NCBI RefSeq assembly: GCF_000429525.1
Contig: NZ_AUCA01000008.1
Coordinates: 1-64,000 of the forward strand
Length of the DNA stretch: 64,000 bases
Source: Alicyclobacillus contaminans DSM 17975
Lineage (GTDB): Bacteria; Bacillota; Bacilli; Alicyclobacillales; Alicyclobacillaceae
Direction: 5' to 3'
Shown: positions 28,563 to 34,764 of the stretch, one piece after another
How the letters are laid out: every line of letters begins with the position of its first letter
How positions within the stretch are numbered: position 1 is the stretch's first letter
Notes under the pieces: model-generated
What the model saw: only the letters and a program-made list of their open reading frames with translations
Databases searched by the model: none
Told to the model about the DNA's origin: nothing
Translations under genes and position numbers: made by a program

Positions 28563-29711
28563 TTACGGTCGATACGTGAACGGCTCCGGCCGCGGACCGC
28601 GTCCAAAGTGATGCAGAATGGCCTGCACAATGCGCTCCGATGCGTTCCCGTCGCCGTATGGGTTCTTGCGCCCCGCCATATCCTGATAGGCCGCCTCATC
28701 GGTCAACAGCCGCAGCCCTTCGCGAAAAATGTCCGCCTCATCCGTCCCCACCAGTTTCAGCGTACCGGCCGAGATCCCTTCCGGCCGCTCCGTGGTATCC
28801 CGCAGCACCAACACGGGAACACCGAGCGATGGCGCCTCCTCCTGAATCCCGCCGGAATCAGTGAGAATCAGCGTCGCCCGCGCCAGGAAGTTGTGATTGT
28901 CCACCACCCCGAGCGGATCTATCAGGTGAATGCGCGGATGGTTCCCCAACACCGCGAACGCCACCTCGCGCACACTCGGGTTCAGGTGCACCGGGTAGAC
29001 CAGATGCACGTCCGGCAGTTCGTCCACCAGTCTGCGCGCCGCCTGGCAAATATGTTGCAGCTTTTCGCCTAAATTTTCCCGCCGATGCGACGTCATGTAG
29101 ACCATTCGGCTTCCTTGCGGAATCGCGTCCAACACCGGGTGGTGGTACGTCTCCTGCACCGTCGTCTTCATCGCGTCCACCACCGTGTTCCCGGTCACGA
29201 ACACCCGGTCCGGCGCCTTGCCTTCCCGCCACAGGTTGTCCGCCGCCCACGCGGTCGGCGCAAAGTACAGATCGCACAGCACGTCCGCCAGCTGCCGGTT
29301 CATCTCTTCTGGGAACGGACTGTACTTTTCATATGTACGCAATCCGGCCTCCACATGACCGATGGCAATTTGCTGATAAAATGCGGCCAACGCCGCCGCG
29401 AACGTCGTGGTGGTGTCCCCGTGCACCAGGACGATGTCCGGTTTGCGCGCCTCCATCACCGACTCCAGTCCCGACAGCGCCTTGCGCGTGATGGTGCCGA
29501 GCGTCTGCTTGGGCTCCATGATGTCGAGGTCGTCATCCGGCTCAATGCCAAACACCTCCAACACCTGATCCAACATCTCGCGGTGCTGGGCGGTCACGCA
29601 GACCAGGGACTCAATGCCCTCCGTTTGCTTGAGCGCGCTCACCAGCGGCGCCATTTTCACCGCTTCCGGCCGCGTGCCGAAGACCGTCATAACCTTGATG
29701 GGCCTATCCAC
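28563..29711 (-). CDS. mnaA: Non-hydrolysing UDP-N-acetylglucosamine 2-epimerase
   Basis: 382 residues, GTG start with GGAGG 7 nt upstream. It interconverts UDP-GlcNAc and UDP-ManNAc, supplying ManNAc for teichoic-acid linkage units or other surface glycans. V-F-G-T-R-P-E-A-V-K-M (9-19), V-H-G-D-T-T-T-T, H-V-E-A-G-L-R-T and T-S-H-R-R-E-N are the known active-site segments, and L-T-D-S-G-G-I-Q-E-E-A binds the UDP part. It follows upp by 32 nt and is probably cotranscribed. Confidence 0.96.
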   Translation of the reverse strand: MDRPIKVMTVFGTRPEAVKMAPLVSALKQTEGIESLVCVTAQHREMLDQVLEVFGIEPDDDLDIMEPKQTLGTITRKALSGLESVMEARKPDIVLVHGDTTTTFAAALAAFYQQIAIGHVEAGLRTYEKYSPFPEEMNRQLADVLCDLYFAPTAWAADNLWREGKAPDRVFVTGNTVVDAMKTTVQETYHHPVLDAIPQGSRMVYMTSHRRENLGEKLQHICQAARRLVDELPDVHLVYPVHLNPSVREVAFAVLGNHPRIHLIDPLGVVDNHNFLARATLILTDSGGIQEEAPSLGVPVLVLRDTTERPEGISAGTLKLVGTDEADIFREGLRLLTDEAAYQDMAGRKNPYGDGNASERIVQAILHHFGRGPRPEPFTYRP

Positions 29712-30464: not shown

Positions 30465-30473
30465 ATTATACCA
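30465..30473 (-). promoter_or_regulatory. Extended -10 promoter for upp-mnaA
   Basis: The minus strand has TGGTATAAT (TGn plus perfect TATAAT), with a poor -35. The leader to upp would be about 85 nt. Confidence 0.6.
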
Positions 30474-30510: not shown

Positions 30511-30519
30511 TGGTATAAT
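30511..30519 (+). promoter_or_regulatory. Extended -10 promoter for the glycosyltransferase cassette
   Basis: TGGTATAAT on the plus strand, 38 nt from the divergent upp box and identical in sequence. The leader to the ATG at 30751 would be about 225 nt. The 30374-30750 gap otherwise holds only the repeat described at 30594. Confidence 0.6.
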
Positions 30520-30750: not shown

Positions 30751-31917
30751 ATGTCTTCATTGCGAAGACTTCTGATTCTGTCCGCCTCGTATGGCGAAGG
30801 CCATCAACAGGCTGCGAACGCGGTGCGCGACGCACTGAAAATGATGCACCCGGAGACACATATTGAAATTATCGACTATATGCGAAGCGTGCATCCCATG
30901 CTCGATTCCGTGGCCAAGTACTGCTATCTGCAGAGCATTCGCTTCGCACCCGCGCTGTACGGCTGGTTTTACAAAGGCACCAGCCAAATCCCTCCATCGT
31001 CGCTGATTCAGCGTCAGCTGAACTCGCTGGGCATCCGCGAGATGGAGGATGTGCTGCAGGCATACAACCCGGATGTGGTGTTTGCAACATTTCCGCAGCC
31101 GGCCGGCGTAGTGTCCTACCTCAAGCAGAAGGGGTTGACCGACGTCCCGCTGGCCACGGTCATCACCGACCACGCGATTCACAGCCAGTGGATTCATCCG
31201 CTGACCGACGCGTACTTCGTCGGGTCTGAATACGTGCGCCGCGGCATGTTGGCGCGCGGCATCCCGGCGCGAACCATTCACGTCACCGGCATTCCGATTC
31301 GCCCGGCGTTCAGGCAGACGTTTGACAAAGCGGCGCTGCGCGCCAAGTACGGACTTCGGGAGGACATCCCAACCGTCCTGGTGATGGGCGGCGCGTACGG
31401 TGTGATGGCAGACATCAACCTGATTTGCGAAGAACTGTTCAACTACCCCCATCCGGTGCAGGTGGTGGTGGTCACAGGCCGCAACAAGCGAATGAAGCAA
31501 CAGCTGGACGAGTCGGTGCAATCGGCGACACAGCCGTCCCGGGTGTACGGCTTCGTGTCGGAAGTGTACGAGCTGATGGCGGTGGCGGATCTGATGCTGA
31601 CCAAGGCCGGCGGACTGACCATTTCGGAAGCGTTGGCCATGCAGCTCCCCATGCTCCTGTACCGCCCCATTCCGGGACAAGAAGTGCAAAACGCCAAGTT
31701 CCTGGTGAGATCCGGTGTGGCTGTGCTGGCGCGAAGCCGCAAACAGGTCAGCGAGCACCTGTATGATCTCCTGGTCGCAAATCCGAAAAAGCGAGAGACG
31801 ATGAAACAGCGGGCGCTCAAAGTCCGGCGCCTGAACGCCGCAGAAGAAATCGCAAGAACGTTGATTGACCTCGCAAGTCAACGCCAATCCGGGGCAAACT
31901 ACTCTTACCAGCATTAG
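30751..31917 (+). CDS. UgtP/MGDG-synthase-like glycosyltransferase
   Basis: 388 residues, GT-B fold of family GT28. The N-terminal S-A-S-Y-G-E-G-H-Q-Q-A-A (about 12-23) is the acceptor-domain signature of MGDG synthases and Bacillus UgtP. C-terminal part has T-K-A-G-G-L-T-I-S-E-A near 290 and R-P-I-P-G-Q-E-V-Q-N-A near 310, the nucleotide-sugar site. Likely product is a glycosyl-diacylglycerol or related glycolipid on the inner membrane face; donor and acceptor are not shown. ATG with GAGAGGAA upstream. First gene of a three-gene plus-strand cassette. Confidence 0.85.
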   Translation: MSSLRRLLILSASYGEGHQQAANAVRDALKMMHPETHIEIIDYMRSVHPMLDSVAKYCYLQSIRFAPALYGWFYKGTSQIPPSSLIQRQLNSLGIREMEDVLQAYNPDVVFATFPQPAGVVSYLKQKGLTDVPLATVITDHAIHSQWIHPLTDAYFVGSEYVRRGMLARGIPARTIHVTGIPIRPAFRQTFDKAALRAKYGLREDIPTVLVMGGAYGVMADINLICEELFNYPHPVQVVVVTGRNKRMKQQLDESVQSATQPSRVYGFVSEVYELMAVADLMLTKAGGLTISEALAMQLPMLLYRPIPGQEVQNAKFLVRSGVAVLARSRKQVSEHLYDLLVANPKKRETMKQRALKVRRLNAAEEIARTLIDLASQRQSGANYSYQH

Positions 31918-31952
31918 GACGGGCACTGCTCGTCCCGGCGAGGAGTGGTTCT

Positions 31953-33287
31953 GTGAACAATCGACGGGGGCTGTCCCGACTTTCGCAATGGCTGGAACCT
32001 GAATTGTTTCAGCCATTTGTTTTTGGCGTCCTGTTCTCCCTCACACTGTCGGAATTCGTTCGCGGGGCCCTGACCCTGTCGCTGATTCCCACCTACGGCC
32101 GGAGCGTCCTCGGCTTTGCCGTAGAATGGACCTCCCTTGCCCTGTCGATGCACTATTTGGCGGACAACCTGATGCGCTCCCCCGCCGGCTGGATGGCGGA
32201 TAGGTTCGGGCAACGGACGATGCTGCTGGCCGGGTTTGCACTGTCCTTCTCGGCGGTGTTCTGGATGATGAACGCCCATTCCATACTGAGTCTCATCGGC
32301 AGTCTGGCCCTGTACGGCATCGGCGTGACGCCGATGTGGCCCGCGGCCATCTCGGGCATTGGCCTCGCCACGCCGGAACAGAGCCGCGCCCGATTCATGA
32401 GCTACCTGTACATATTCTGGATGGCGGGGACCGGGCTGGGCCCTGTTACCATCAACTTCCTGATTGGCCGCACGTATACGTTGGCGTTCACCGTTCTGCT
32501 GGCGATAGATTGCGCCGGCTTCGCCGTCGCCTGGTTTCTGGTGCGCCGTCCGCGCGATGTGGGAGTTCGGAACCCCGCAGAGGGGGCATCGTCACCCCAC
32601 CGGTCGGTCAGACGCCGCCGCGCTTATTGGCAGTCCCTGTGGCGCAATGTGAAGGAAGTGGCATTCCTCTTTCCCGGCATGTTTGCCCAAACTTTCGCGG
32701 TGGCCTCGCTGCTGCCGATTCTGTCGCTGTACGCGAAAATCGTCCTGCGCCTGAGCGGCGCCATGTACAGTTTTCTGCTGATATTCGGCGGCGCGTTCGC
32801 GGTGGTGCTGCTCATCCCGGCCGGCCACCTGGTGGACCGCTTCGGCCCCCGGCGATTCCTCGTCCCCGCCTTCCTCATCGCCGGGACGGCACTTGGCACG
32901 TACCCCATCTTTCATACGCTGATCAGCACCTTCGTGGTCGTCGCGGTCCTCGGCTGTTGCTATGGATTCATCCTGCCGGCCTGGAACTCGGTTCTGGACA
33001 AGTCCATCGATCCGGACAAAAAAGGGATCCTGTGGGGCGTGTTCATGACGGTGGAGGGATTCGGATCCGCCATCGGCCCGTACCTGGGCGGACTCGTGTG
33101 GGACACCATCAGCCCGCGCGCACCCTTTGTCGTCAGCGCCGTGGTGATTTTCGTCATGGGCCTCTTGTACCTGGTGCTCCCCATCGAACGGCGCAATCGC
33201 GCACCATCGCGGACACGCGGGGAACCGCGCAAGGCCTCGCCGATGCCCCCAAGACGCATGGCCCGGAGCCGCAGACAGCGCACGTGA
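31953..33287 (+). CDS. MFS transporter
   Basis: 444 residues, about 12 helices in two halves with a charged central loop (about 205-225). G-W-M-A-D-R-F-G-Q-R-T near 72 and G-H-L-V-D-R-F-G-P-R-R near 290 are the MFS loop 2-3 and 8-9 motifs. GTG start 7 nt after GAGGAG. The C-terminal 30 residues are very rich in Arg and Pro and are cytoplasmic. It is 35 nt after the glycosyltransferase. Substrate unknown; export of a lipid or sugar would fit the neighbours, but this is inference. Confidence 0.85.
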   Translation: MNNRRGLSRLSQWLEPELFQPFVFGVLFSLTLSEFVRGALTLSLIPTYGRSVLGFAVEWTSLALSMHYLADNLMRSPAGWMADRFGQRTMLLAGFALSFSAVFWMMNAHSILSLIGSLALYGIGVTPMWPAAISGIGLATPEQSRARFMSYLYIFWMAGTGLGPVTINFLIGRTYTLAFTVLLAIDCAGFAVAWFLVRRPRDVGVRNPAEGASSPHRSVRRRRAYWQSLWRNVKEVAFLFPGMFAQTFAVASLLPILSLYAKIVLRLSGAMYSFLLIFGGAFAVVLLIPAGHLVDRFGPRRFLVPAFLIAGTALGTYPIFHTLISTFVVVAVLGCCYGFILPAWNSVLDKSIDPDKKGILWGVFMTVEGFGSAIGPYLGGLVWDTISPRAPFVVSAVVIFVMGLLYLVLPIERRNRAPSRTRGEPRKASPMPPRRMARSRRQRT

Positions 33288-33359
33288 TGGACGCTTTCTG
33301 CATCGCCGTCCTCCTCATGGTATGATTCCAAGAGAAGTCTGACAGGGGAGGATACGAGC

Positions 33360-34658
33360 TTGGTTTGGCGGATTTTGCTCCTGGTCATCATCGCCTATCT
33401 CATATACGCGCCCATTCCGGAGATTCTCTTCAAGCTCCTGCACATCCGGACATTGTACAAGGGCCCCAACACCACGCGCGCCATCGCCCTGACCTTTGAC
33501 GACGGGCCCGATCCGCGCTATACCCCGAAAGTCCTGCAAATTCTCCGTGAACACGGCGCCAAAGCGACGTTCTTCCTCGTTGGCCGGCGCGCCGCAGAGC
33601 ACCCGGATCTCGTCCGGGCCATCCTGGCGGACGGACACGAGATTGCCTCTCACGGTCACCTGCATCGACACGCATGGCTGATGACGCCCTGGTCCACCTG
33701 GCGGGACATCCGCGAAGGCAAACGACAGGTGGAACGCATCACCGGGCAACCCATTCGCTACTACCGGCCGCCCTGGGGCGCGTTCAACTGGTTTACGCGC
33801 ATCGCCTGTGCGCGCCTGCACCTCCAGCCTGTGCTGTGGTCGGTTCGGGCCATCGACTGGCTCCCAGGCGAGTACGCCGACGACGTGGTGAAGCGCGTGA
33901 TCCAGGGCGCGCACACCGGCGCCATTGTGCTCTGCCACGACGCGGGCGGCGCCGAAGGCGCGCCGCGCAACACCATCGCGGCATTGCCTGAAATCTTGAC
34001 GACGCTTGGCCAACGCCGCTTCACGTTCACCACCGTCGGCGCGCTGGCAGAGGCGCGCCGCGAACAGGCGACGGCGGTGCAATCGCTCTACAGCCACTAT
34101 CCAACGGCGCGCCGGGCACTCATCCGGCTCTGGACAATTGTCGAATTCGCCTTCCGCACCCTTTACCGCATAGAGCCGGTCAACCGGATTTTCCGCGTGT
34201 CTCCCACCGTCTGGACGCACGGAACCCGAACCGACGCCAACGGCGAAGTCATTGTGCAGGACGGCGACGCGGCACTGGAACTGCATTTCCAGAACGAAAC
34301 CTTAATCACGATTTCAGGCGCGCGCGACAACCGCGCGCTCATCCGCGGACTGCGTGGCGCCAAGGAAGGTTTTCGCGACATCGCCCAGTTGCTCCGGCAC
34401 GATCCGCGCTATCAAAACGTCCGCGCCATCGTCGCGCCAACCCTGATGAACCGCGGGGTGGATTTGCTCGGCTTCCACATCGAGGAACTGCCCGACAACC
34501 GGGGCAATCGATGGGTTCAGGGATACATGCGCTTTCTGTTGGGCTTGTACCACCCGGACGGATTCGCGAGATTAAAGGAAGGCCGACAATCGCTGGAGAT
34601 GAAGCTCATTTGGATGTCCCGCGAGGAAGTGCTGAACCTGTACGGAAGAGATGATTGA
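33360..34658 (+). CDS. Polysaccharide deacetylase (CE4) with YkoP-like C-terminal domain
   Basis: 432 residues from TTG at 33360 (GGGGAGG upstream). One N-terminal helix (about 4-22) anchors it outside the membrane. The CE4 domain (about 40-230) has all motifs: T-F-D-D-G-P-D, S-H-G-H-L-H-R-H, R-P-P-W-G, D-W-L-P-G and L-C-H-D. It should remove N- or O-acetyl groups from a cell-surface glycan. The last 180 residues form a separate domain resembling Bacillus YkoP (from memory; unverified). A TATGAT box at 33321 may be an internal promoter. Confidence 0.85.
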   Translation: MVWRILLLVIIAYLIYAPIPEILFKLLHIRTLYKGPNTTRAIALTFDDGPDPRYTPKVLQILREHGAKATFFLVGRRAAEHPDLVRAILADGHEIASHGHLHRHAWLMTPWSTWRDIREGKRQVERITGQPIRYYRPPWGAFNWFTRIACARLHLQPVLWSVRAIDWLPGEYADDVVKRVIQGAHTGAIVLCHDAGGAEGAPRNTIAALPEILTTLGQRRFTFTTVGALAEARREQATAVQSLYSHYPTARRALIRLWTIVEFAFRTLYRIEPVNRIFRVSPTVWTHGTRTDANGEVIVQDGDAALELHFQNETLITISGARDNRALIRGLRGAKEGFRDIAQLLRHDPRYQNVRAIVAPTLMNRGVDLLGFHIEELPDNRGNRWVQGYMRFLLGLYHPDGFARLKEGRQSLEMKLIWMSREEVLNLYGRDD

Positions 34659-34665
34659 GCGACGA

Positions 34666-34710
34666 AAGGCCGCCCGCTCCGTGCCAGGGCACGGAAGGGG
34701 CGGCCTTTTT
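34666..34710 (+). terminator. Intrinsic terminator of the plus-strand cassette
   Basis: Long GC-rich stem (AAGGCCGCCC with GGGGCGGCCTT, continued by TCCGTGCC/GGCACGGA) followed by TTTTT at 34706-34710. It lies 8 nt past the deacetylase stop, in front of the convergent glyA. Confidence 0.93.
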
Positions 34711-34764
34711 GCATATGGAATCCCGTCTGTCAGCGCCTGTGGAAGCAAGATCTGCGCTTGTGCA

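Follow-up and report, generated by a model that had tools for sequence, protein, structure and literature searches.

A three-gene operon of Alicyclobacillus contaminans with a fused CE4-YkoP protein and its possible role in making an N-acyl-glucosaminyl membrane glycolipid

What could be made by three genes that encode, in tandem on one strand, a glycosyltransferase (GT), a transporter of the major facilitator superfamily (MFS) and a membrane-anchored deacetylase? The question is raised by positions 30751-34658 of the 64,000-nucleotide stretch of Alicyclobacillus contaminans DSM 17975 that we analysed (contig NZ_AUCA01000008.1; hereafter the window), which hold three plus-strand genes, each with a plausible ribosome-binding site. 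An earlier note, made from the letters alone, had described a UgtP/MGDG-type GT, an MFS transporter and a membrane-anchored carbohydrate esterase family 4 (CE4) protein packed on one strand, and the domain families, together with an N-terminal membrane helix in the third protein, bear this out. Our answer, to which we give slightly more than even weight, is that the product of the operon is a membrane glycolipid, an N-acyl-glucosaminyl diacylglycerol, which is flipped to the outer leaflet. In the proposed pathway, the UgtP-like GT would transfer N-acetylglucosamine (GlcNAc) from UDP-GlcNAc to diacylglycerol (DAG) at the cytosolic face; the CE4 domain, judging from its intact catalytic residues and its homology to NodB, would strip off the N-acetyl group, as NodB does on chitooligosaccharides; the C-terminal YkoP domain of the same protein may, on the grounds of fold similarity and gene linkage, use acyl-CoA or acyl-acyl carrier protein to attach a long acyl chain to the freed amine, a step that can be likened to those of NodA in the Nod-factor pathway and of Orf11* in that of teicoplanin; and the LtaA-like MFS protein, in which key residues are conserved, would flip the resulting three-chain glycolipid to the outer leaflet. 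The new part of the operon is the third gene, encoding CE4-YkoP, whereas the first two are a known pair.

The third gene (33360..34658, plus strand; 432 amino acids, TTG start) encodes the membrane helix followed by two domains. The first, at 33462..34049 (plus strand), is a CE4 (NodB-homology) de-N-acetylase domain (PF01522 Polysacc_deac_1, 7.7e-34), in which the metal-binding and catalytic residues D47/D48, H98/H102, R136, D166 and H193 were invariant in 17 orthologues, and for which CE4 structures ranked top in a fold search of the PDB. The second, at 34110..34643 (plus strand; residues 251-428), is the extra C-terminal domain that had been noticed on the deacetylase, and was identified as YkoP (PF22790, 1e-33), with a score of 119 bits versus a gathering cut-off of 27. 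PF22790 is a named Pfam family of uncharacterised function, and YkoP of B. subtilis is listed with unknown function (PMC6212828). Over 43 divergent YkoP sequences, H309 (in an ELHxxN motif) and the GF pair at 371-372 were invariant.

An N-acyltransferase role for YkoP had been put forward as a hypothesis before any folding. The full-length model of CE4-YkoP had a mean pLDDT of 89.9, and the YkoP domain alone folded likewise. When the YkoP domain was folded alone and compared with the whole PDB by Foldseek, the top five matches were all structures of the teicoplanin acyltransferase Orf11*, four of which hold decanoyl- or octanoyl-CoA, and the remaining matches were nearly all GNAT enzymes. VIA-align gave Z scores of 8.2 with a GNAT toxin and 7.9 with the teicoplanin acyltransferase, with 122-134 residues aligned at 3.3-3.9 A. 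The predicted model suggests a GNAT-like fold, and YkoP is most likely an N-acyltransferase, which we propose to be of the long-chain type; modification by the third protein would therefore consist of de-N-acetylation followed by N-acylation.

The cellular location of these two reactions bears on their order. In CE4-linked loci, YkoP proteins that are separately encoded have neither a transmembrane segment nor a signal peptide, which argues that YkoP, and with it the fused CE4 domain, faces the cytosol; both domains are thus most likely cytosolic, where the acyl donors are. Since the deacetylase is probably cytosolic, the order would be make, modify and move, and not make, move and modify as the earlier note had suggested, whereas its idea of a single glycolipid module is upheld by the conserved adjacency of the genes. 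The CE4 domain itself is about equally close to PdaB (139 bits) and NodB (136 bits), which would also suit a PdaB/PgdA-like deacetylase acting on peptidoglycan at the cell surface, with the lipid genes merely adjacent. However, the CE4 domain is linked to GT and MFS genes and fused to a domain that elsewhere lacks transmembrane segments, an association that recurs across the phylum, and we consider such a surface enzyme very improbable.

The first two genes encode relatives of characterised proteins. The GT gene (30751..31917, plus strand; 388 amino acids), a putative GlcNAc-DAG synthase, encodes the domains MGDG_synth (PF06925, 9.9e-41) and Glyco_tran_28_C (PF04101, 6.9e-14), and the closest solved relative of the protein is UgtP (PDB 9wde, 1e-54); as it scored 342 bits versus the equivalog model PRK13609 of NCBIfam, below the cut-off of 500, we call it UgtP-like only. 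The MFS gene (31953..33287, plus strand; 444 amino acids, GTG start), encoding a putative glycolipid flippase of the MFS_1 family, lies 35 bp downstream of the GT gene and 72 bp upstream of the CE4-YkoP gene. The closest solved relative of its product is LtaA of S. aureus (PDB 6s7v, 1.8e-37), but its 170 bits versus NF047396 of NCBIfam fall below the cut-off of 450, and hence it is termed LtaA-like only. Alignment to 6s7v showed that E34, R37, D71, W129 and W156 are identical to E32, R35, D68, W127 and W150 of LtaA, which line the pocket for headgroup and proton (PMC8866510). In S. aureus, ugtP (ypfP) and ltaA form one operon (PMC11237490), so that the first two genes of the trio, a DAG glycosyltransferase followed by an MFS flippase, correspond to a described pair. 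The earlier statement that no described system has exactly this trio has accordingly to be narrowed, since making and moving are the work of the ugtP-ltaA pair, with both proteins below the equivalog cut-offs; the trio differs from that pair in adding CE4-YkoP and in occurring in genomes without LtaS.

This relationship would also be expected of the classical pathway to the lipoteichoic acid (LTA) anchor, in which diglucosyl-DAG, the product of the GT, is flipped by the MFS protein to serve as the anchor of LTA, and peptidoglycan or sugars on LTA are the separate target of the CE4 protein. No characterised proteins are closer to the GT and MFS proteins than UgtP and LtaA, and a single LtaS-like protein, bearing a GQGxTSD motif, is encoded in the genome of the window. 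However, no PF00884 match was found in five genomes that carry the full trio and are each at least 90% complete (G018, G027, G028, G032 and G036), the GT and MFS scores lie well under the cut-offs, and the coupling of CE4 to YkoP is left unexplained. The LTA anchor was rejected as a general role because these five near-complete genomes lack an LtaS-family protein, suggesting that, in these genomes at any rate, the glycolipid is itself the end product, and we regard the LTA-anchor pathway as distinctly unlikely.

The proposed synthesis of an N-acylated glycolipid resembles two known systems. The nodABC(IJ) operon for Nod factors (NodC, a GT; NodB, a CE4 deacetylase; NodA, an N-acyltransferase; NodIJ, an exporter) follows the same logic of glycosyl transfer, de-N-acetylation, N-acylation and export, with a homologous CE4 domain, but has a chitin oligomer as acceptor, a GT2-type GT and an ABC exporter. 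Nod operons are carried on rhizobial plasmids, and a set of GT, CE4 protein, N-acyltransferase and exporter is therefore an established biochemical arrangement. The tailoring of teicoplanin by a GlcNAc transferase, a deacetylase and Orf11*, the best fold match of YkoP, proceeds from GlcNAc to glucosamine (GlcN) and then to N-acyl-GlcN. In this case, by contrast, the substrate is a soluble antibiotic, and Orf11*, of about 320 amino acids and with an extra domain, has no detectable sequence similarity to YkoP.

N-acyl-glucosaminyl glycolipids, the product class predicted for the trio, occur in A. acidocaldarius and in Thermus, but GlcN in the Thermus glycolipid sits on glucose and not directly on DAG. 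The A. acidocaldarius glycolipids described by Langworthy in 1976 are said to be N-acylglucosaminyl diglycerides. The title of that report (given in PMC3587569) speaks of "novel glucosamidyl glycolipids" from A. acidocaldarius, then named Bacillus acidocaldarius, and N-acyl-hexosaminyl glycolipids are found throughout Thermus and Meiothermus (PMC3398001, PMC3035268). In the literature on N-acylglucosamine glycolipids we found structures and no gene assignment, and according to a paper of 2022 the T. thermophilus enzyme that forms the third hydrophobic chain was not identified (PMC9636437). A. acidocaldarius is also the source of 1-(O-beta-N-acylglucosaminyl)-tetrahydroxypentane-hopane (PMC8537080), a lipid that the trio might make if the sugar were put on bacteriohopanetetrol. 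However, the GT belongs to a family that glycosylates DAG, and no match to squalene-hopene cyclase was found in the genome of the window or in the trio genomes G028, G030, G032, G033 and G036; the absence of this match makes a hopanoid acceptor extremely improbable and mostly refutes it for the genome of the window.

Several points weigh against the N-acyl-glucosaminyl diacylglycerol that we favour. The nearest named relatives of the GT use UDP-glucose, and GlcNAc, as opposed to glucose, is a putative donor sugar. The charge flanking the membrane helix is often weak, so that the topology rests mainly on the argument from YkoP. The fold support for YkoP is moderate and comes from a predicted model (Foldseek E of 4e-3, TM-score of about 0.33, VIA Z of 7-8), the classical acetyl-CoA motif R/QxxGxG/A of the acyl-CoA pyrophosphate loop was not recognised in YkoP by eye (a conserved RGLRxxR helix start lies nearby), and a profile comparison with two NodA sequences only gave no match (hhalign probability 0.1%). 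YkoP was accordingly rejected as a homologue of NodA by sequence; a YkoP profile had no match among PDB sequences. The glucosamidyl lipids of 1976 come from A. acidocaldarius, which is another strain than that of the window. Finally, among 40 YkoP loci of the phylum, which were chosen for diversity and not at random, nine have YkoP without CE4, near SPFH/NfeD/SppA genes, near LytS-like genes or in a Bacillus context, and the domain thus has other or broader uses. The moderate fold match and these nine loci would also fit a module that makes free-amine GlcN-DAG, with YkoP binding or presenting the lipid or transferring a short acyl or other group, and Thermus does have a lipid with non-acetylated glucosamine as well (PMC9636437). 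By contrast, the top fold matches are specifically those of a long-chain N-acyltransferase that follows a deacetylase and has a glucosamine amine as its target, and the lipids reported from Alicyclobacillus are glucosamidyl, not free-amine. We consider a free-amine product unlikely, while granting it some weight.

Conservation of the trio was assessed in 41 genomes of the order, from two families and including the genome of the window. In 22 of them the trio is contiguous, with all its genes on the same strand, so that adjacency is common rather than rare among relatives; in one genome more (G034) the trio is split over contigs. Variants were also present: the third gene encodes YkoP alone in G008, the MFS gene is lacking in G016, and about 7 kb separates the CE4-YkoP gene from the rest in G011 and G022. 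Most of 18 loci of the trio type that were fetched (L031-L048) lie between upp/wecB and glyA. The trio had been thought to be inserted in an upp-glyA backbone, but since its position between upp/wecB and glyA is syntenic in two families, it is ancestral in the order, and a recent insertion was rejected. PF22790 was present in 39 of the 41 genomes. In addition, many Alicyclobacillaceae have a second cluster of separate genes in the order GT-CE4-YkoP-GT, which was found in at least 10 relatives; two of these clusters start with an MFS gene (MFS-GT-CE4-YkoP-GT). The second cluster would add a second sugar. The genome of the window has a second MGDG-family GT gene (L163:5142-6953; G000 contig 12), which has a DedA-like membrane protein encoded next to it and is a candidate for adding a second sugar.

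In the phylum at large, PF22790 was found in 67 of 398 Bacillota genomes, or about one in six of those sampled. YkoP is linked to CE4 in 31 of the 40 diverse loci (fused in 18, adjacent in 13), and the neighbours include an MGDG-type GT in 16, an LtaA-like MFS protein in nine and the full set in five. An operon on the megaplasmid of Thermomicrobium roseum (L164:3786-6528), encoding in this order a DUF2334 deacetylase, two GT2 proteins and YkoP, repeats the scheme of the trio in a different phylum, with partners that are not homologous. YkoP is also present in one Thermus genome, among the few control genomes that have it; no Thermus plasmid match was found. A broader proposal, which we hold to be evenly balanced, is that the YkoP proteins (PF22790) form a new family of N-acyltransferases for long chains which, with CE4 or another de-N-acetylase, provide the glucosamine-containing membrane glycolipids of Bacillota, Thermomicrobia and Thermus with their third acyl chain, in a NodA/NodB-like pathway of independent origin that in Alicyclobacillus is fused into one protein.

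Two other contexts of YkoP were observed. In L108, L109, L120, L122 and L123, a separate YkoP gene stands beside genes for SPFH-family, NfeD-like and SppA-like protease proteins, without CE4, forming a second recurring context. In L105 and L106, YkoP of the Bacillus type has either a phosphodiesterase-like gene or MarR and Ku/ligase genes in its vicinity. B. subtilis ykoN is listed as sigma-G dependent (PMC4703394), and a role of Bacillus-type YkoP in the spore membrane is therefore possible.

The trio also has its own transcription signals, as had been suggested. An exact extended -10 element (TGnTATAAT), TGGTATAAT, lies at 30511..30519 on the plus strand, and a divergent one, directed toward upp, lies at 30465..30473 on the minus strand; such exact sites occur four times in the window versus 0.15 expected, and both divergent elements are kept in an alignment with A. 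pomorum. A scan for the -35/-10 consensus found no promoter. The trio ends in a strong intrinsic terminator at 34665..34711 (plus strand), with a hairpin of -41 kcal/mol (z = -5.7) and a U run on the plus strand, which may also serve the converging glyA. Within the early MFS codons, at 31987-32017 (plus strand), a hairpin of 12 bp with a T-rich run after it (-17 kcal/mol, z -3.3) is possibly an internal attenuator, or arose by chance. A divergent neighbour of the trio, kept across the order, is a wecB/mnaA-like UDP-GlcNAc 2-epimerase gene (28563-29711, minus strand), and the substrate of this enzyme is the sugar nucleotide proposed as donor of the GT.

N-acyl-glucosamine glycolipids with three chains have been reported from the membranes of thermophiles and acidophiles, and the locus offers a concrete candidate gene for the step that adds the third chain, in the form of a putative fused deacetylase-acyltransferase that lends itself to expression and assay in a single step. 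If the proposal is true, this would be the first function for the YkoP family.

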